Positions 10,026 to 25,458 of a DNA stretch of 64,000 bases are shown here, piece by piece; position 1 is the first letter of the stretch; the number at the start of each line of letters is the position of its first letter. This DNA is from Colwellia sp. BRX10-3 (GTDB taxonomy: Bacteria; Pseudomonadota; Gammaproteobacteria; Enterobacterales; Alteromonadaceae): contig NZ_JACGWA010000005.1 of assembly GCF_014077505.1 (NCBI RefSeq), positions 62,001-126,000 of the forward strand, written 5' to 3'. The notes below the pieces were generated by a model, which saw only the letters and a list, made by a program, of their open reading frames with translations, ran no database searches and was not told the origin of the DNA. The translations under genes and the position numbers were made by a program.

Positions 10026-11666
10026 CTAGTTTAATTTTTGCCATTTAAGCGTGAGTTCATCAAAAGTTGTTAAACTTTTACCTTCAAGATTTAGCGCGGA
10101 TAGTACAGCGAGAATTCCCTCAACCGACACGAGGTGATCAGGTATGTCCTGATCTTCCTGCTTAATTTTTATCAATATTTTTAATTTACTGAACAGTAAC
10201 TTAACATTAGTTGGGTTAAGTTTTAATGCCTGATTAATGGCATCAAGCGCTGGCAGTAAACGGTCCTTTTGAAAATGCTCAACTGCCATGGTGTTAAGCT
10301 CTTTGGCGGTAAAGTGTATCTCTTCTCGTTGTTGGCTTTCTTGCGCTATATAGCGCCTAACAACTTGACTATTTAACGAGTCACCGGCGATTTGATTATT
10401 GATCGCCTCGAGCAATTCTATAGCGTCTTCGCGCATCCCTAACTCATGCAATACTTTTACCCTATCTAAATTATCCTCAACCACGGTACTTGGCTTAAGT
10501 GACATATGATTTTCAACCAATTTTTTCGCTTTAACTTGTTCATTACGCACATTGTGTAACCTAGCTTTAACCACTAACAATTGCTGCTTAAAAAGGTTCG
10601 CATCTTGGCTGTCATGCTCAAACTGGGTAATATAACGATCAGTTTGTCGCAATATTTCATTAGCACTTTCATCCGGTGTCGCACAAGCCAGATCAATCCC
10701 CGCTCGAATAACATTAAGTAAAAGCTCGGGCGAATCATGAATAGAGTTTTTCGCTTGTTGAGCTATGTTTCGCGTCGCAAGATATTGCCCTTTATGATCA
10801 TGTGTTAAGCGCGCTAAATCCCATGATTTTTTATTACGTTCAATATTTCTCGGTGCCAGCGCCATGGCTTTTTTAATTTCCTCATAGGCTTGCTCGTATT
10901 CTTCTTGTTCGATGAAGTACTGCGCCATCATATCATGAGCACCGAAGCGCGTGTCTGGCTTATCAATCAAAGTTTTTAGCATGTCGCTAATTTCATCTAA
11001 ACGGCCTTGCTTTAACAAGGCTTTGGCATATCCTAAATATACCCAAGAATATTTATATACTTTCAGCAATTTGCGATAAAAAGTTTCCGCTTCTTCAAAC
11101 TCAAGCAAAGCAAGATATGATTCACCCTTAATGCGGTTAATATTAGGATGGTAATGTGCTAGTTTTTCATTTTGAAGGTGTCGGTCGGCAAAATAGAGCG
11201 CTTTAGCATAGGCTTTTTTGTCAATCGCACTGTTGATATTAAAAAGCACCTGTTTTACTTTTAATGTTGCAATCAAACGGGTTCTAACTTTATTTATCGC
11301 TAATGGCTTGGTCCAGAAATCATCCGGTTGTAACTCAATAATCGAGTTCACTAATGACTCATTGGTTTCTGTGCTGAGGAAGATTAATACGGTAGTTTTA
11401 GTGACATGACCTTTAAATTTCAACTCTTCTAATAAATGAAAGCCATCTTTGTCACTTTTTACATTAAATGCGCAAATAACAATGTGAAAATGCATTTCAT
11501 CACACAACCTAAGTCCGTAATAGGCATTTTGTACACAACGAACTTCCTTTATGCCTAATGCAAATAAACTTTCTTTTAAAATACTGTGCACTAGCAAATT
11601 ATCGTCGATAACCAAAACATTGAGTTGATCGAGCTGCGCTAATGTATTTTTTTCAACATCTTCCAT
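10026..11666 (-). CDS. Receiver-TPR protein with degenerate receiver
   Basis: A 546-aa cytoplasmic protein: a response-regulator receiver fold at residues 15-135 and TPR-like helical repeats over the rest (for example the LLPALDAINQALKLNPTNVK unit near residue 485). The receiver keeps the acidic pair Asp21-Asp22 and the lysine in DFWTKP, but the phosphoacceptor position reads HIVICAFNVKS, so Ala66 stands where Asp is expected. The codon is a clean GCA in an open frame. Domain layout recalls VieB of Vibrio cholerae, a receiver-TPR protein that inhibits a phosphodiesterase, but function is not shown. It is the last gene of a three-gene minus-strand set with the DUF1289 and kinase-like genes, 31 bases after the DUF1289 stop. 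Confidence 0.85.
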   Translation of the reverse strand: MEDVEKNTLAQLDQLNVLVIDDNLLVHSILKESLFALGIKEVRCVQNAYYGLRLCDEMHFHIVICAFNVKSDKDGFHLLEELKFKGHVTKTTVLIFLSTETNESLVNSIIELQPDDFWTKPLAINKVRTRLIATLKVKQVLFNINSAIDKKAYAKALYFADRHLQNEKLAHYHPNINRIKGESYLALLEFEEAETFYRKLLKVYKYSWVYLGYAKALLKQGRLDEISDMLKTLIDKPDTRFGAHDMMAQYFIEQEEYEQAYEEIKKAMALAPRNIERNKKSWDLARLTHDHKGQYLATRNIAQQAKNSIHDSPELLLNVIRAGIDLACATPDESANEILRQTDRYITQFEHDSQDANLFKQQLLVVKARLHNVRNEQVKAKKLVENHMSLKPSTVVEDNLDRVKVLHELGMREDAIELLEAINNQIAGDSLNSQVVRRYIAQESQQREEIHFTAKELNTMAVEHFQKDRLLPALDAINQALKLNPTNVKLLFSKLKILIKIKQEDQDIPDHLVSVEGILAVLSALNLEGKSLTTFDELTLKWQKLN

Positions 11667-11697
11667 TATATACCTTACTGACTATTGCCTTAGGCTA

Positions 11698-11904
11698 CTA
11701 TTTTCCAAACTGTTGCTGACGTTGCCGGCATTGACTAAGCACGTCTTTCTTTGCCGCCACATTAAGCTTGCTCCATGCCATAATTTCATCAATATTTCGA
11801 AAACAACCTAAACAAACATCCTGTTCATTTAAACAACAATTGCGCACACAAGGGCTAGCAACTTCTTCAACATTGTCTATTGGTTGGTAGTATTTAACAC
11901 TCAT
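11698..11904 (-). CDS. DUF1289 small cysteine-rich protein
   Basis: A 68-aa protein with the DUF1289 (YdhL-like) layout: SPCVRNCC near residues 17-24 and CLGC at 31-34, giving Cys19, Cys23, Cys31 and Cys34 as a probable metal site, then MAWSKLNVAAKKDVLSQC. The role of the family is unknown. Its ATG overlaps the stop of the upstream kinase-like gene by 4 bases (ATGA), so the two are translationally coupled. Confidence 0.9.
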   Translation of the reverse strand: MSVKYYQPIDNVEEVASPCVRNCCLNEQDVCLGCFRNIDEIMAWSKLNVAAKKDVLSQCRQRQQQFGK

Positions 11905-14900
11905 ATCGTTTCTGCAAATTCAGTTAACTGTATTAAACACAGTTTGAGATGATTTAGCTGACGTTGCAATTCTTCTTTTTGTTTCGATGAAAACACGTCA
12001 CTCGCACCTGTTTTACTTATCAACTGACTCAGCTGCCTACATTGCGCTAATAAAGGCGTGGCGGCAATAACTTTTGCCAAGGTCGTTAATGACGCTAAAA
12101 GCGTTAATGCTAGCGGGTAATCTTGCGTCTCTATTGCAATACTTAACGCTTGAGTGTTGGTACTAATGTCAGCCAAATATTCATTTAACATAAAAGCGGC
12201 TAACTCAGCAGAACCTTGATTTTGCGCGAATTGGCTTAAATCAAAAGCATCATATGTCGGGTTATTTATTTGTTCAAGGTTGAGGGCAAAGTCTAATGAC
12301 TGATCAATTTCAGCCAACTTTAATGCTTGTTCAAAAGTAGCATCAATTTCGTTAGATGTATTTTTTGGCACGACTTGCTGCTTATTACCTTGTTTACGCT
12401 GCTGTTTTTGTGGGGCTGATGCTAGCTTATCTTCTCCCATACTCGTTTGTGATTTTAACCACGGTGATAATTGCTGGGTGAGTTTTTGAATATCCAGTGC
12501 CGATGCTAAATAACCACTATACCAAGATTTTGGTAAGTTGAGCTTGTGGAAAAAGTCTGCCTTGCTGTCATTATTTTTAAGCACAGCAAAAATGCCACGC
12601 ACTGTAGATACTGAGTCACGAATATCGACATTAAAACCAACAAACTCGGAAATAACCACTAAGTAACGCCCTGACTGCCATAAGCGCTCAAGATGCTCTA
12701 CTTGAGAAACCACGGTAACCTGCAAACCAAGCCAGTGCAATATTCTAATTAAAGCATCATTTTCACGTTGCTCTGCCACACCCAGTAAAACTTCAACTTG
12801 GCTAGGCATAAAACGATAAGGTGAGAAAATTTCTGGCTCAACGGATAAATTAATCTTGGTAGTTCCACTGAGTAATTGCGCAACACTGGCAATTAACTCA
12901 CCGGTGAACCAAGGCAAATTACTGGCCGAAAACAAGCCAGTTCTTTGTAATGAACCGCAATGAAATGGTTGAATAACCTGTATTTTAGGTTGTAATTTAG
13001 TCGGTAAACTAGCCAAATGTTTAGTGATTAAATCATAATCTGAAAAGTATACTTCTGGCGATAAAATAATAACATCTAAGCGATTTTTCGTTAGATGCTT
13101 AATACTGATTTGGCGTTGAAATAGCGACAAATCTTGCATTTTTTCCACTACAGCTTTGCTATAGCTGAGTTGGTGACAAATTCTTTCACGGCTGCGCTTG
13201 TCAGTCGCAATCACTAAAAGTGTGCATTTAGCTAATTTTACAGGCTTGTTTTTGCTCAATTGGTTTAGGTTTTCGGCAACGGTTAATGAGAATTCAAAAG
13301 TAAACTTTCCCGCCGACTCTAATTGTTGACTGACTTTATTACTGACATTGAAAACTAACTGTAAATCTCGTAAATAATTATCAACAGTATTATCAAAATC
13401 AGCACCTATTTCGTCATCCACGGCTAATTCACTGACCATTTGAGATAACATTTCTGCATGCGATGGTTTATTAACGAGAAAACTCATTCGTACGGTTTGC
13501 TGCGCGCTATTTACGTCAATAACTTGCAAGTCGACTTCGAGCTCAACCCCGCGCTGTTCGGTCAACATTTTTTGACAAATTGTGCGAACCATGGCTTGAA
13601 ATAATTCACTTTCAAGCGTCACCAAAGAGGCTAAGTTATCTGATATATTTAAATAAATGAGATTGTCGTTATGCACTTGCACCAAGCTAACATTGGTCAG
13701 TGCTGTGTGCATTTCATTAGCCAGTGTCACTGTTGATAAAGTCAAAACAAAATCGTCTCGACGTAATTGCGCGCTGGTTTTTAGTTGCTCATTACGGCTT
13801 ATTAACTGTCGTAATTGCTGATATGCAAACTGTTCGTCACCGTCAGTTAATGACAACATTTGCCTTGCTACCATAGCTTTACTTATCAGAACTGAAGCCT
13901 CTTCGCTATGAGCAATAATGGCGAGTTTATCGGCTTGGTTTTGCTGTTGAAGTTGTTGCTGTAATTGTGTATTGCCATCTTTAAGTGCGCGATACTCTTC
14001 TACATTGGATAAACTGCCACACCAATTGCCATCAAGGTATTCGATAGTTAAAGCAATGGCTTTTTCTTGATTGCTGATTAAGGAGATTTTTTCAACGCCC
14101 TTATGCTTTTTAGCTTGTCGTGCAATAGATAAAATTGCGCGAACATCTATCCGACTAAAGCACTTACGCCAATGTTTATTCGCATGTTTAACACCTAATA
14201 AAACACGTAATTGCTGTTGTTGCTTATCTGACAGTTCAGGTAATTGCCAAAAAACATTCCCGGTATGGCGAGACATATGCGCCGTATGATTTTGGTGTTG
14301 TTGCTGCTGCTGTTTAAAGTCAGCCTCACTGTGTAATGGCTGAGTAAGCTGTTTAATAGAATTGATGATTGCGCTAATTTCAAGACCAGGTATTTCTGCT
14401 ACAACCTCACCTTTAGTCACAAACTCATCAACGACAACGGTACTTTGCACACCAAAGTGTTTAATTTGTTTGCGTAGGCTCAAAAGTAAGCTGATAAAAA
14501 TAAGACTAAGCAGAACAAAAACACACGTAATCAGCCAGATATAATGTTTAGGTTGTAAACTTATATTGATTTTCGCCAGCCATGTCAGCAACTGCTGCTC
14601 GATAATAGATGATTTTAGCGGCTGCACGACAAGTGCTTTATCCAGTAAAGGTATTAAATCACGCTTTTGTGTTGTTATCTCTGCCTGAAAGTCACTAGCC
14701 CTGCGTAACTGACCCCGCCATTTTGCAAAGGTATTTTGTTCGCTAAACAGTAATTCGTTAAGCATTGTGGTTTGTTCGATTAACGCGATTTCGTTAGCCG
14801 TTTTGTCTGTCACCTCGGTCATATTTGTTAACCAAAGGCTAATATCACTTTGAATTTTTTGTTGAATATAATCAAATTCGACTAAATCATATTGCAAGTC

Positions 14901-15527
14901 AAGTTGGTTAAACATCACTAAAGTATCAATTAAACCTTGGTATAATTCACGGTTGATATTTAAATTATTAACAATATTACTCAGCGTTTTAGCACGTGTA
15001 GCTGTGGCTCGAGAGGTTAAGTTGTTTTGGGTAATTAGACGATATAAAATTTGTTGCTGATTGGCTTGTTCAACAATTAAACTAGACAAGCTATCTGTAA
15101 CTAAGGTTAATTGAATAGTGACGCTGTCTTTGAGTTGCAAGTTTCGTCGCTCGCTTTGAGTCAAGCGCGAGACATTTTCTGCCTGCAATTGTAAACGCTG
15201 AATAAGCTGTTCTAATAATTGTCGATTGTGTCGACTTAACACGGAAATATTATTTAAGTTTTCATTTAAGGTTCGATAATTAGCACCAAAATTTGCAGCA
15301 TATTTACTGTGCAATAAATCATTGAGCAATCGATCATTTTTAATCAAGAGTAATTGTTGTTGATTGTGCTTTTCAATAGCCGGCAATTGCTGATATTTAA
15401 GGTGTGCTAAATCTTGTTCATATTGAAAGTAAAACGAGAAGCCCACAAAAAAAAGCAAGGAAAAGCTTAAGGCTAATAAATAAAATCGGCTGTTAAGCTG
15501 ACGATATAGCGGCAGTGTTGAATCCAT
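11901..15527 (-). CDS. Large membrane protein, hybrid-kinase-like architecture, degenerate
   Basis: A 1208-aa inner-membrane protein. Membrane segments lie at about residues 13-31 and 329-350 and enclose a roughly 300-residue helical, Gln/Leu-rich periplasmic sensor-like part. The cytoplasmic part reads like a BarA/ArcB-type hybrid kinase, yet key residues are missing: the HisKA-like helix near residue 590 (DDFVLTLSTVTLANEMHTAL) lacks the His, no N-box or G-box is seen in the HATPase-like part, two receiver-like segments (LDVIILSPEVYF near 810 and RYLVVISEFVGF near 950) have Ser instead of Asp, and the C-terminal Hpt-like helix (LALTLLASLTTLAKVIAAT) has no His. These are alignments by eye. 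It heads the set with DUF1289 and receiver-TPR genes. It may be a pseudokinase scaffold. Confidence 0.75.
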   Translation of the reverse strand: MDSTLPLYRQLNSRFYLLALSFSLLFFVGFSFYFQYEQDLAHLKYQQLPAIEKHNQQQLLLIKNDRLLNDLLHSKYAANFGANYRTLNENLNNISVLSRHNRQLLEQLIQRLQLQAENVSRLTQSERRNLQLKDSVTIQLTLVTDSLSSLIVEQANQQQILYRLITQNNLTSRATATRAKTLSNIVNNLNINRELYQGLIDTLVMFNQLDLQYDLVEFDYIQQKIQSDISLWLTNMTEVTDKTANEIALIEQTTMLNELLFSEQNTFAKWRGQLRRASDFQAEITTQKRDLIPLLDKALVVQPLKSSIIEQQLLTWLAKINISLQPKHYIWLITCVFVLLSLIFISLLLSLRKQIKHFGVQSTVVVDEFVTKGEVVAEIPGLEISAIINSIKQLTQPLHSEADFKQQQQQHQNHTAHMSRHTGNVFWQLPELSDKQQQQLRVLLGVKHANKHWRKCFSRIDVRAILSIARQAKKHKGVEKISLISNQEKAIALTIEYLDGNWCGSLSNVEEYRALKDGNTQLQQQLQQQNQADKLAIIAHSEEASVLISKAMVARQMLSLTDGDEQFAYQQLRQLISRNEQLKTSAQLRRDDFVLTLSTVTLANEMHTALTNVSLVQVHNDNLIYLNISDNLASLVTLESELFQAMVRTICQKMLTEQRGVELEVDLQVIDVNSAQQTVRMSFLVNKPSHAEMLSQMVSELAVDDEIGADFDNTVDNYLRDLQLVFNVSNKVSQQLESAGKFTFEFSLTVAENLNQLSKNKPVKLAKCTLLVIATDKRSRERICHQLSYSKAVVEKMQDLSLFQRQISIKHLTKNRLDVIILSPEVYFSDYDLITKHLASLPTKLQPKIQVIQPFHCGSLQRTGLFSASNLPWFTGELIASVAQLLSGTTKINLSVEPEIFSPYRFMPSQVEVLLGVAEQRENDALIRILHWLGLQVTVVSQVEHLERLWQSGRYLVVISEFVGFNVDIRDSVSTVRGIFAVLKNNDSKADFFHKLNLPKSWYSGYLASALDIQKLTQQLSPWLKSQTSMGEDKLASAPQKQQRKQGNKQQVVPKNTSNEIDATFEQALKLAEIDQSLDFALNLEQINNPTYDAFDLSQFAQNQGSAELAAFMLNEYLADISTNTQALSIAIETQDYPLALTLLASLTTLAKVIAATPLLAQCRQLSQLISKTGASDVFSSKQKEELQRQLNHLKLCLIQLTEFAETI

Positions 15528-15874
15528 GAACGAGGTAACATCCTAACAAGTCAAATACATAATGGGTCGTTTATATAGGCAAACCAGTTCAGCAAGTTTT
15601 CAATTGGTTTGACTATATAACAGTGTATGGGTTTAACTTTAATAAGCAACGATTAATGTACCACTCAGGTTTTAAGCTTTAATATATTAAAGCAATTTTT
15701 AAGTCATTTAGCGCCGCCAACATAATGGTCAACGACTCAACCCTCATTGTTACTGTTGCTGTTTTTATTGCGCTATTACAGCAATCTCAATATTACAATA
15801 AAACTAGATCAACATAACTGAAAAAATGCGGTAAGATGCCAACATACCGAAATATGAACAAAGGTTGGACCAGT
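15528..15874. other. Intergenic region, divergent promoters
   Basis: About 340 bases between the kinase-like gene (left) and the DUF4442 gene (right). AT-rich, with no open frame of note, no strong hairpin and no repeat that I can see. It probably carries promoters for both flanking genes. Confidence 0.5.
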
Positions 15875-16345
15875 ATGAGCCAAACGAACTACCTGCTAAA
15901 ACTCCAAGAAAAATTTCTTAAATATCCATTTGGGCGCACTTTATTTAGTAAAATGTTTGCATCCCAAGCGCCATACTTTAAATCAATAAAACCTCGTATT
16001 TTGAAGTTAGAGGAAAACTTTTGTCAGGTATTACTACCAAAGCGTAAGCCGGTACAAAATCATATTGGTACTGTCCATGCTATTGCAATATGCAACGCAC
16101 TAGAAATGGCGATGGGTGCAATGACAGAATCCTCTATCCCAAAACATTTACGATGGCTACCAAAAGGTATGAACGTAAATTATCTTGCTAAATCGACAAC
16201 AGATATTATTGCAGAGGCTAAAATAAATCCTGAACAATGGCAGACTGGAGATGTTTCAGTGTCTGTGCGGGCATTAGATACTAATGGCACTGTTGTTGTT
16301 GATGGTGAAATCAGATTATGGCTATCTGAAAAGCCGATAAAGTAG
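15875..16345 (+). CDS. DUF4442 hotdog-fold protein
   Basis: A 156-aa protein with the DUF4442 layout, a hotdog-fold family related to acyl-CoA thioesterases. Supporting segments are FGRTLFSKMFASQAPYF, NHIGTVHAIAICNALEMAMG (the family's HNxxGSVHA-like active-site region) and LPKGMNVNYLAKSTTDI. The ATG at 15875 has AAAGG 10 bases upstream; the frame also offers ATG at 15854 and 15836, so the start is not certain. It stands alone and converges on orn. Substrate unknown. Confidence 0.8.
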   Translation: MSQTNYLLKLQEKFLKYPFGRTLFSKMFASQAPYFKSIKPRILKLEENFCQVLLPKRKPVQNHIGTVHAIAICNALEMAMGAMTESSIPKHLRWLPKGMNVNYLAKSTTDIIAEAKINPEQWQTGDVSVSVRALDTNGTVVVDGEIRLWLSEKPIK

Positions 16346-24052: not shown

Positions 24053-25458
24053 TGTTGAGAGTTACCGGTAAATTTTCTTCAATTGGCGCTAAGCTATTTA
24101 TCTGTTTTTGGTTAATTGTTATTTTAACCATTGGCGCCACTAGGTTGGTGTCGGAGCAATTTAGAACAAAAAGTTTTATTGCTCCTACTCATCATGCTGA
24201 TATGGCTAAAATAGAGCGAATTAGCCGCCAAATCAAACGTAACCCTGCAACTAGTGTGCAAAAAGTGCTGTCAATGTTGCCGAAAAGAGAAGGCCGAGAA
24301 TTACTCTTAAAAAATGTGACAACTAATGAAGTACTTGCTTCAGAAAAATGGCAAATAGTCAGTTTACAAAAATTTTTAACCGAAAATAACCTAGAAAGCC
24401 TGACGACGGTTAAGTTTGAATTCTACAGAATGACAGGGCCGCTAGCGATTAATGTTGCAGGTACTCCTTACCAGTTATTTCTTGCAAGCCGTGACCGAAA
24501 ACCTCCTTTTGGCAGTATTATACATCGTATTCCCACGTGGCTACGTTTGGCTATTCCGGTCATTATCAGTTCTATTTTACTCTGGTTACTCACTCGCTCA
24601 TTAACCAAGCCATTAATCGCTATGCAAAAAGCTGCAGCACGTTTTGGTGATGGTGAATTTACCGCGCGCATCCCCTTAATAGCACAACGCAATGATGAAA
24701 TTGGTGCATGTGCGGTAAGCTTTAACTTAATGGCTGAAAAGCTAGAACAAAATATTGGTTCGCATCAACGACTCATGGCAGACGTTTCTCATGAATTGCG
24801 ATCACCGATGACCCGGTTACAAATCGCCCTAGGACTTGCACAACAAAACAATATAAGTGAAGACTTATTACACAAGCATTTACAACGATGTGAACTTGAG
24901 GTCGCTAGGCTCGATGAGATGATCTCAAATGTATTATCGTTATCTCGAATGGAAAACACCATTAGCCAAATGGAATTGATGACGGTCGATCTTAAACAAC
25001 TATTAACCCTTTGTATTGAAGACGCACAATATATCGCCAATGAAAAGTCCATTACCATTGCCTTTGAATATCCAGAAACAGCACTACTGCAGGCTGATGC
25101 AAACTTATTATCCAGTGCCATCAATAATATTTTGATTAACGCGATAAAATATAGTCATAAAAACCAGCAAGTAAAAGTGTATTTAATCAAAACCAATAGC
25201 CATTTCGTGATCAATATTATGGATACGGGTAGTGGTGTTCCAGCGAATGACTTACCTAAGTTATTTGAAGCCTTTTATCGAGTGGCACAGTCGCGTGAAC
25301 GCACGACAGGTGGTACGGGATTAGGTATGGCCATAGCCAAACAAGCTATTGTTGCGCATAATGGCAACATTAGTGCTCAAAATAATAGTGAGAATGGCCT
25401 CACGGTTACCATTGAGTTACCGTTAGAGATCAGTAAAAATAGTGTTAATGAATCATAA
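24052..25458 (+). CDS. cpxA: Sensor histidine kinase, CpxA-like
   Basis: A 468-aa inner-membrane sensor kinase. There are membrane segments at about residues 12-30 and 162-180, a periplasmic sensor domain between, a HAMP linker (SLTKPLIAMQKAAARFGDGEF), a HisKA domain with phospho-accepting His247 in ADVSHELRSPMTRLQ, the N-box (INNILINAIKYS) and G-boxes (MDTGSGVP, GGTGLGMAIAK). It is translationally coupled to the regulator upstream, and overlaps the lysophospholipase gene downstream by 11 bases. Likely monitors envelope stress, with the Spy-like protein as a possible partner. Confidence 0.88.
   Translation: MLRVTGKFSSIGAKLFICFWLIVILTIGATRLVSEQFRTKSFIAPTHHADMAKIERISRQIKRNPATSVQKVLSMLPKREGRELLLKNVTTNEVLASEKWQIVSLQKFLTENNLESLTTVKFEFYRMTGPLAINVAGTPYQLFLASRDRKPPFGSIIHRIPTWLRLAIPVIISSILLWLLTRSLTKPLIAMQKAAARFGDGEFTARIPLIAQRNDEIGACAVSFNLMAEKLEQNIGSHQRLMADVSHELRSPMTRLQIALGLAQQNNISEDLLHKHLQRCELEVARLDEMISNVLSLSRMENTISQMELMTVDLKQLLTLCIEDAQYIANEKSITIAFEYPETALLQADANLLSSAINNILINAIKYSHKNQQVKVYLIKTNSHFVINIMDTGSGVPANDLPKLFEAFYRVAQSRERTTGGTGLGMAIAKQAIVAHNGNISAQNNSENGLTVTIELPLEISKNSVNES

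Follow-up and report, generated by a model that had tools for sequence, protein, structure and literature searches.

Within a 64,000-nucleotide (nt) stretch of DNA from Colwellia sp. BRX10-3 (contig NZ_JACGWA010000005.1, positions 62,001 to 126,000; hereafter the window), we found a gene (11901..15527, minus strand) whose product of 1208 amino acids (aa) is, as judged from alignments and predicted structures, a degenerate hybrid histidine kinase. Evidence for this open reading frame (ORF) came from its predicted fold, from alignment to real kinases with hhalign and from full-length orthologs, which were present in 17/17 searched genomes of the genus, with 43-71% identity to the window copy. 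The closest named orthologs were those of Colwellia and Cognaticolwellia. Alignments and models together show that the protein has lost the known sites for making, holding or passing phosphate, and it probably works by binding a partner instead of transferring phosphate. An initial annotation, made from the letters of the window, had proposed a phosphorylation-free descendant of a sensor system; this proposal is well supported by the alignments and models, in which the folds are kept and the losses are common to orthologs.

Domain architecture of the 1208-aa protein

The protein had no Pfam match above cut-off, none in NCBIfam at E ≤ 1 and none among PDB sequences at E ≤ 10; a Pfam match to DUF1501 (E = 0.0097) was below cut-off and was judged to be due to chance. 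AlphaFold (AF2) models were built with 24 orthologs in two parts, residues 1-371 (predicted local distance difference test, pLDDT, 88.2; predicted template modeling score, pTM, 0.67) and residues 372-1208 (pLDDT 78.9, pTM 0.63). Read from the models and alignments, the architecture is a transmembrane helix (TM), a helical sensor, a second TM, a PAS-like domain, DHp and CA domains, two receivers (REC) and a histidine phosphotransfer (Hpt) domain. Residues 1-371 (14415..15527; minus strand, as for all parts of this gene) comprise TM1, an all-helical periplasmic sensor and TM2, as indicated by the pLDDT of the model and by matches to the TorS sensor. The PAS-like domain (residues 421-508; 14004..14267) was recognized from the order of strands and helices in the AF2 model alone. 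Next come a DHp-like helical hairpin (residues 509-590; 13758..14003), placed by the model and its GacS match, and a CA (HATPase) fold (residues 597-752; 13272..13739), placed by an ETR1 match and hhalign. REC1 (residues 765-905; 12813..13235) was assigned from a PhoB match and alignments, and REC2 (residues 909-1030; 12438..12803) from alignments, its fold being seen only within the match to ShkA. A variable, low-confidence linker (residues 1031-1090; 12258..12437; pLDDT mostly 26-31, identity 0.09-0.19) leads to a pseudo-Hpt helical bundle (residues 1091-1208; 11904..12257) that matched an Hpt structure (3myf) and, weakly, the Hpt of CheA (E = 0.011).

In structural comparisons with VIA-align, the cytoplasmic model matched GacS (7z8n; Z 18.4, root-mean-square deviation [rmsd] 6.4, 269 residues aligned, model positions 76-380), the CA domain of ETR1 (4pl9; Z 15.9, rmsd 2.8, 144 aligned), a Shewanella Hpt (3myf; Z 15.3, rmsd 2.3, 110 aligned), RetS (Z 15.2, rmsd 3.2, 205 aligned), ShkA (Z 14.2, rmsd 5.5, 375 aligned, model positions 161-654) and the PhoB receiver (2jb9; Z 12.7, rmsd 2.2, 113 aligned, model positions 396-518). 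When the cytoplasmic profile was aligned by hhalign with four genuine hybrid kinases (L081, L083, L086 and L087), a probability of 98.8 (E = 7.3e-17) was obtained over 639 columns, spanning query positions 124-836 of 837. The HisKA, REC and Hpt folds that the initial annotation had expected were thus recovered, as DHp, CA, REC, REC and Hpt folds were all predicted.

The N-terminal sensor matched TorS (3o1i_B; Z 15.3, rmsd 5.9, 247 aligned) and, in a tie, PilJ (8wdf; Z 15.0, rmsd 3.6, 222 aligned), Z values of ~15 being easily reached by helical bundles; the top five Foldseek matches were all TorS chains. TorS, the trimethylamine N-oxide sensor kinase of E. coli, is an active relay. It is similar in having an all-helical periplasmic sensor between two TMs, whereas the 1208-aa protein has an added PAS-like domain and second receiver and has lost its sites. 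The tie with PilJ suggests a sensor class wider than TorS, and neither torT nor torR was among the window neighbors of the gene as named by NCBIfam. In a search of 247 genomes of the order with the N-terminal profile, no active parent sharing the sensor was found; 24/247 genomes were matched at E ≤ 0.01, and the best non-ortholog reached E = 8e-7 over ~95 residues.

ArcS of Shewanella oneidensis was considered as a parent on account of a similar gene neighborhood. It is an active hybrid kinase with a PAS domain, two receivers, a CaChe sensor and a separate HptA (PMC3691769). Compared by description, ArcS is like the 1208-aa protein in its PAS domain and paired receivers and unlike it in its activity, sensor and separate HptA; judged in the same way, the sensor and HptA do not fit a parent, and ArcS was rejected.

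Loss of catalytic and phosphoacceptor residues

Residues were assigned from hhalign and a profile alignment of 45 ortholog rows, of which one (L023) is a second cut of the gene in L020 and another (L021) is a fragment. In the CA-like part of the window protein, the N-box Asn is replaced by Lys653 and the G1-box Asp by Lys687, and the G2 box/ATP lid is deleted, in agreement with the initial annotation, which had seen neither an N-box nor G-boxes. Its reading of a Ser in REC1 (Ser823; codon 13059-13061) and of an Hpt-like end without His (Ala1145; codon 12093-12095) was likewise confirmed by alignment. The Hpt His was found in 0/44 ortholog rows and the REC1 Asp in 0/40, and neither occurred in 13 further loci (10 new sequences). 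The Hpt residue could be read in 18 of the 19 genera that bear the gene, the remaining one (g8) being cut by a contig end, and the His was lost in 18/18.

The phosphoacceptor of REC2 had also been read as Ser; it is actually Glu961 (codon 12645-12647), and the Ser adjoins it. This position was occupied in 43 rows by Glu (33), Asp (6), Asn (2), Gln (1) and Val (1), the Val belonging to a short form (L068) with non-homologous letters at the REC sites; all 17/17 genus rows had Glu. Two of the further loci (L175 and L178) had Asp, so that eight orthologs keep it (with L065, L067, L069, L114, L115 and L126). Of the three phosphosites tested (REC1, REC2 and Hpt), REC2 is the only one intact in any row. 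Retention of His and Asp residues in orthologs, named by the initial annotation as an outcome that would speak against it, was therefore seen for the REC2 Asp but for neither of the other two sites. The claim that the HisKA-like helix has no His holds in part: none was found at the H-box position of the window protein, where the alignment between genera is weak and no per-residue claim is made, but His540 is present in the first DHp helix, N-terminal to the aligned H-box position, and a His occurred there in 3/41 rows with a letter at that site.

The REC2 counts raise the question of residual or alternative chemistry, in which the Asp of some lineages would take phosphate or the Glu would permanently mimic phosphorylation. 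The prevalence of Glu, invariant within the genus, and the survival of Asp are in its favor. However, the acidic pair of REC2 has been replaced (the first residue was acidic in 0/43 rows and the second in 6/43, with Val917 and Ala918 in the window), and the same protein is without a His donor. We consider such chemistry very improbable.

Distribution and selection

At E ≤ 1e-15, a cut chosen by us, the gene was detected in 50/147 genomes of the family, representing 19/52 genera; 13 weaker matches fell on parts of other frames. In a QueG-TsaE-AmiB tree, 32 bearers formed one group (100/100), with six sampled non-bearers outside it. Since the lost sites are common to the ortholog rows, the loss of phosphosites is, as far as sequence comparison can tell, old.

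The initial annotation had taken the long, stop-free frames as a sign that the protein is kept. Indeed, no internal stop was present in any listed match of the gene. Among 136 genus pairs, many of them saturated, the ratio of non-synonymous to synonymous differences (pN/pS) had a median of 0.44, and the eight closest pairs gave 0.29-0.34. Pooled by region over the eight pairs, which are not independent, pN/pS ranged from 0.24 to 0.38 across the folded domains, with the dead CA and REC1 among them, and was 0.56 in the linker. For the neighboring gene, which encodes a protein with a receiver and tetratricopeptide repeats (REC-TPR; described below), the median was 0.12 (421 residues). The absence of stops and these ratios therefore suggest that the gene is kept as a protein, under weaker constraint than its REC-TPR neighbor.

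A once-active gene that has lost its function and lingers in slow decay would also show fast divergence between genera and lost catalytic residues, and could dispense with its middle or with REC1, as several genera have. Against such a relic stand the lack of internal stops, the purifying ratios that the genus shows for all folded domains, a neighborhood that is constant in 25 named loci (two cut by a contig end) and the sharing of lost sites by 18 genera, which make decay an improbable explanation.

Short forms and the conserved surface of the pseudo-Hpt

Short forms consisting only of the sensor and the pseudo-Hpt were found in three genera. Those of G079 (592 aa) and G118 (611 aa) matched the profile only at positions 1-431 and 1054-1176, and 1-424 and 1027-1176, respectively, and that of G027 was 525 aa in length. 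Four genomes of g76 encoded forms of 549-572 aa with a divergent sensor; here the profile alignment was forced through part of the absent middle, the absence of which was deduced from length and from a second hydrophobic segment at about residue 350 (three of the four genomes). In addition, G017 was without REC1, and two g62 genomes (G077 and G116) were without REC1 and the PAS-like part. Parsimony placed three changes for middle-domain loss on the QueG-TsaE-AmiB tree and four on the QueG tree, and several independent losses are likely on this phylogenetic evidence; one common loss was not rejected by the approximately unbiased (AU) test (p = 0.146 and p = 0.257 for the two trees, respectively, and 0.135-0.335 for subsets), and our claim is limited to the occurrence of short forms in three genera.

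Among 22 chosen full-length rows, from which short forms and REC1-less rows were excluded, positions common to at least 80% of rows made up 18.9% of REC2 and 13.6% of the pseudo-Hpt, as against 2-8% of other regions and none of the linker. Within the pseudo-Hpt, 13/24 columns were conserved in the stretch that runs through helix A and the turn into the first half of helix B, compared with 0/21 in 16 true Hpts, and in the His-bearing helix 1/17 compared with 3/17; this sets one ortholog group against mixed true Hpts whose N-termini were cut by the profile match, so the levels are not directly comparable. His occupied the Hpt site in 16/16 true Hpts and 0/28 pseudo-Hpts. In Hpt-receiver complexes, the first helices together with the His helix make the receiver dock, and a conserved face in helices A and B fits docking without chemistry.

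The same surface could belong to a protein that serves as a scaffold or in assembly at the membrane, its two-component role gone and its old folds a mere frame. The new conserved surface of the tail, in place of the phospho-site, is in favor of this, as is the frequent encoding alongside of a DUF1289 protein, of unassigned function. Yet it is the REC2 and Hpt folds, usually devoted to REC-Hpt docking, that are best conserved between genera, and we regard a scaffold as rather unlikely.

The REC-TPR protein

The REC-TPR gene (10026..11666, minus strand) encodes a 546-aa protein with an N-terminal receiver (Pfam Response_reg, E = 4.1e-11) followed by TPRs. The acidic pair, Ser/Thr and Lys of the receiver are kept, and the phosphoacceptor is Ala66 (codon 11469-11471). 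This replacement, reported in the initial annotation, extended to all orthologs examined, with Ala or Ser in 55/55 rows and 19/19 rows from genera with and without the 1208-aa gene; identical rows were removed from the 55-row set, which includes shorter second cuts of the same genes. Among the 28 best-matching REC-TPR loci, Ala or Ser was found in 8/8 at 31-57% identity and Asp in 20/20 below 30%. As near relatives have Ala or Ser and distant ones Asp, the pseudo-receiver is most simply read, from these alignments, as a trait derived within a single REC-TPR subfamily. Two REC-TPR homologs (G018:C1:2163620-2164663 and G150:C1:1548468-1550075) contained in-frame stops and are possible pseudogenes or sequence errors.

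VieB of Vibrio cholerae, a REC-TPR inhibitor of VieS, keeps its Asp62, and its D62A variant inhibits as well as the wild type (PMC4352251). Likened by description, the two proteins share the order of REC and TPR and differ in that the present one has Ala or Ser and is a non-obligate neighbor of the kinase-like gene. The initial annotation had made it the dedicated output of the 1208-aa protein. In such a pair, the pseudo-receiver would bind the pseudo-Hpt or REC2 and the sensor would release or sequester it in the manner of VieB, and the two genes are indeed adjacent and co-directional in 18/25 named loci. No association was apparent across 147 genomes, however: a REC-TPR ortholog (E < 1e-100) was present in 31/50 genomes with the 1208-aa gene and in 46/97 without it (Fisher p = 0.12), or in 31/50 and 72/97, respectively, at E < 1e-70 (p = 0.13), p values that are only a guide because the genomes are related. 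Thus, 19/50 bearers were without an ortholog that 46/97 non-bearers possessed, and the two genes differ in their pace of evolution, as seen from their median pN/pS. Outside the locus of the 1208-aa gene, the REC-TPR gene had no shared neighborhood, no neighbor family occurring in more than 4/19 loci. By these counts the REC-TPR protein is not an obligate partner of the 1208-aa protein, and a dedicated pair is unlikely. Of the single dead relay first envisaged for both proteins, what stands is a 1208-aa protein that is dead throughout; the REC-TPR protein as its dedicated output is unsupported.

Gene neighborhood

The stop codon of the 1208-aa gene overlaps the start (ATGA) of a gene for a 68-aa, Cys-rich DUF1289 protein (11698..11904, minus strand; Pfam PF06945, E = 3.8e-18) in 17/17 genus genomes searched, and a gap of 31 nt separates the latter from the REC-TPR gene in the window. 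The overlap and gap fit an operon, and the arrangement makes it likely that the three genes, called cotranscribed in the initial annotation, form one; in a scan of the locus for promoters and terminators, sites were no more numerous than in shuffles. DUF1289 was a steadier neighbor than REC-TPR, being next after the 1208-aa gene in 25/25 named loci (compared with 18/25). It was undetected beside the gene in ten genomes (G019, G027, G066, G071, G091, G146, G109, G125, G152 and G175). A DUF1289 gene of E. coli, ydhL, was among oxidant-resistant clones (PMC8228696).

The order psd, rsgA, orn, 1208-aa gene, DUF1289, queG, tsaE, amiB was common to the 25 named loci over the length available for each, L111 and L122 ending at contig ends. 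In the window, NCBIfam named the neighbors as AmiB-like (below the cut-off of the model), TsaE, QueG, oligoribonuclease, RsgA and phosphatidylserine decarboxylase. One further gene (15836-16345, plus strand), which had no NCBIfam match and which we take to be thioesterase-like, adjoins the 1208-aa gene in the opposite direction. It was reversed likewise in one named locus only, that of Colwellia polaris (L109; 90% identity); of the other 24, 21 had a co-directional thioesterase-like paralog at 27-37% identity and three had none. In G080, a 1125-aa ORF of unrecognised kind (L066:6368-9745, minus strand) occupied the usual place of orn.

Proposed function and comparison with known systems

By analogy with RetS, DivL and AHP6, the likeliest role of the 1208-aa protein, to which we give an even chance, is that of a membrane regulator working without phosphate, by docking on a phosphorelay that is live. 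A periplasmic cue would move the helical spine of the protein, and its REC2/pseudo-Hpt end would dock, in the same cell, on a receiver or on an active hybrid kinase, locking this partner in a single state much as RetS acts on GacS, DivL on CckA and AHP6 on the cytokinin relay. In the pseudo-Hpt, the conserved face would have shifted away from the helix that bears the phospho-His and onto the first two helices. The co-directional REC-TPR pseudo-receiver would be an optional extra and, by analogy with VieB D62A, probably a binding protein frozen in a single state. Other genes of the same genome gave 8 Hpt matches and 27 HisKA matches (23 above cut-off), so that live relays would be available to act on. 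A HisKA match in a 471-aa open frame lies elsewhere in the window (~24766-24957, plus strand; G000:C42:86766-86957; E = 7e-11).

AHP6 of Arabidopsis is a stand-alone Hpt protein. It has no His and inhibits its relay (PMC3572949); the absence of His is shared with the pseudo-Hpt, which differs in forming the C-terminal part of a membrane sensor. Both RetS and DivL control another kinase by binding to it (PMC12189002). The RetS/GacS system of Pseudomonas and the DivL/CckA system of Caulobacter are alike in having kinase-fold regulators, and the kinase regions of RetS and DivL were among the structural matches of the 1208-aa protein; unlike them, the latter also has dead receivers and a dead Hpt, and its short forms are without the DHp that RetS uses. 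The ChrS pseudokinase of a laboratory-evolved strain promotes signaling via its paralog HrrS (PMC9491836).

Several observations weigh against a docking regulator of hybrid-kinase descent. In a Pfam scan of 18 rows, which includes two unrelated ORFs beside queG in L057 and L062, only four rows touched Hpt (best E = 1.9e-4) and a single row Response_reg; the 25 families listed included no HisKA and no HATPase. Identity to the window copy was only 18-27% outside the genus, indicating loose overall constraint, and within the genus the tail was not the most constrained part (pN/pS 0.38 for REC2 and 0.36 for the pseudo-Hpt, compared with 0.24 for CA and REC1). The survival of the REC2 Asp in 6/43 rows and two more orthologs, and the mixed make-up of the true Hpts with which the pseudo-Hpt was compared, count on the same side. 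The DHp is present in full-length forms and absent from short forms, so a DHp heterodimer of the RetS-GacS type cannot be the general mechanism; nor can docking by REC2, which the short forms also lack. Docking by the pseudo-Hpt is therefore the only part of the model that may be valid for all forms. More tentatively, and with somewhat less than even confidence, we suggest that a whole phosphorelay protein was turned into a conformational, phosphate-free device running from the sensor to a pseudo-Hpt whose conserved face lies off the phosphotransfer site, in which the kinase and receiver modules are optional and, in three genera, absent.

Pseudo-histidine kinases are already known, as are individual kinases, receivers and Hpt proteins that are dead; what differs here is that every module is dead in one protein. 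Among the open PMC papers listed by our literature searches, none dealt with this protein or described a hybrid relay dead in all its modules and common to 18 genera. Profile libraries miss such proteins, the window copy being without an above-cut-off match in Pfam or NCBIfam. The natural series of full-length, REC1-less and sensor-plus-pseudo-Hpt forms lets the minimal working part of a pseudo-sensor be read, and makes Hpt-REC docking without phosphate a directly testable question. If the conversion to a phosphate-free device is true, these bacteria would possess a class of sensor whose output is Hpt docking alone, without chemistry.

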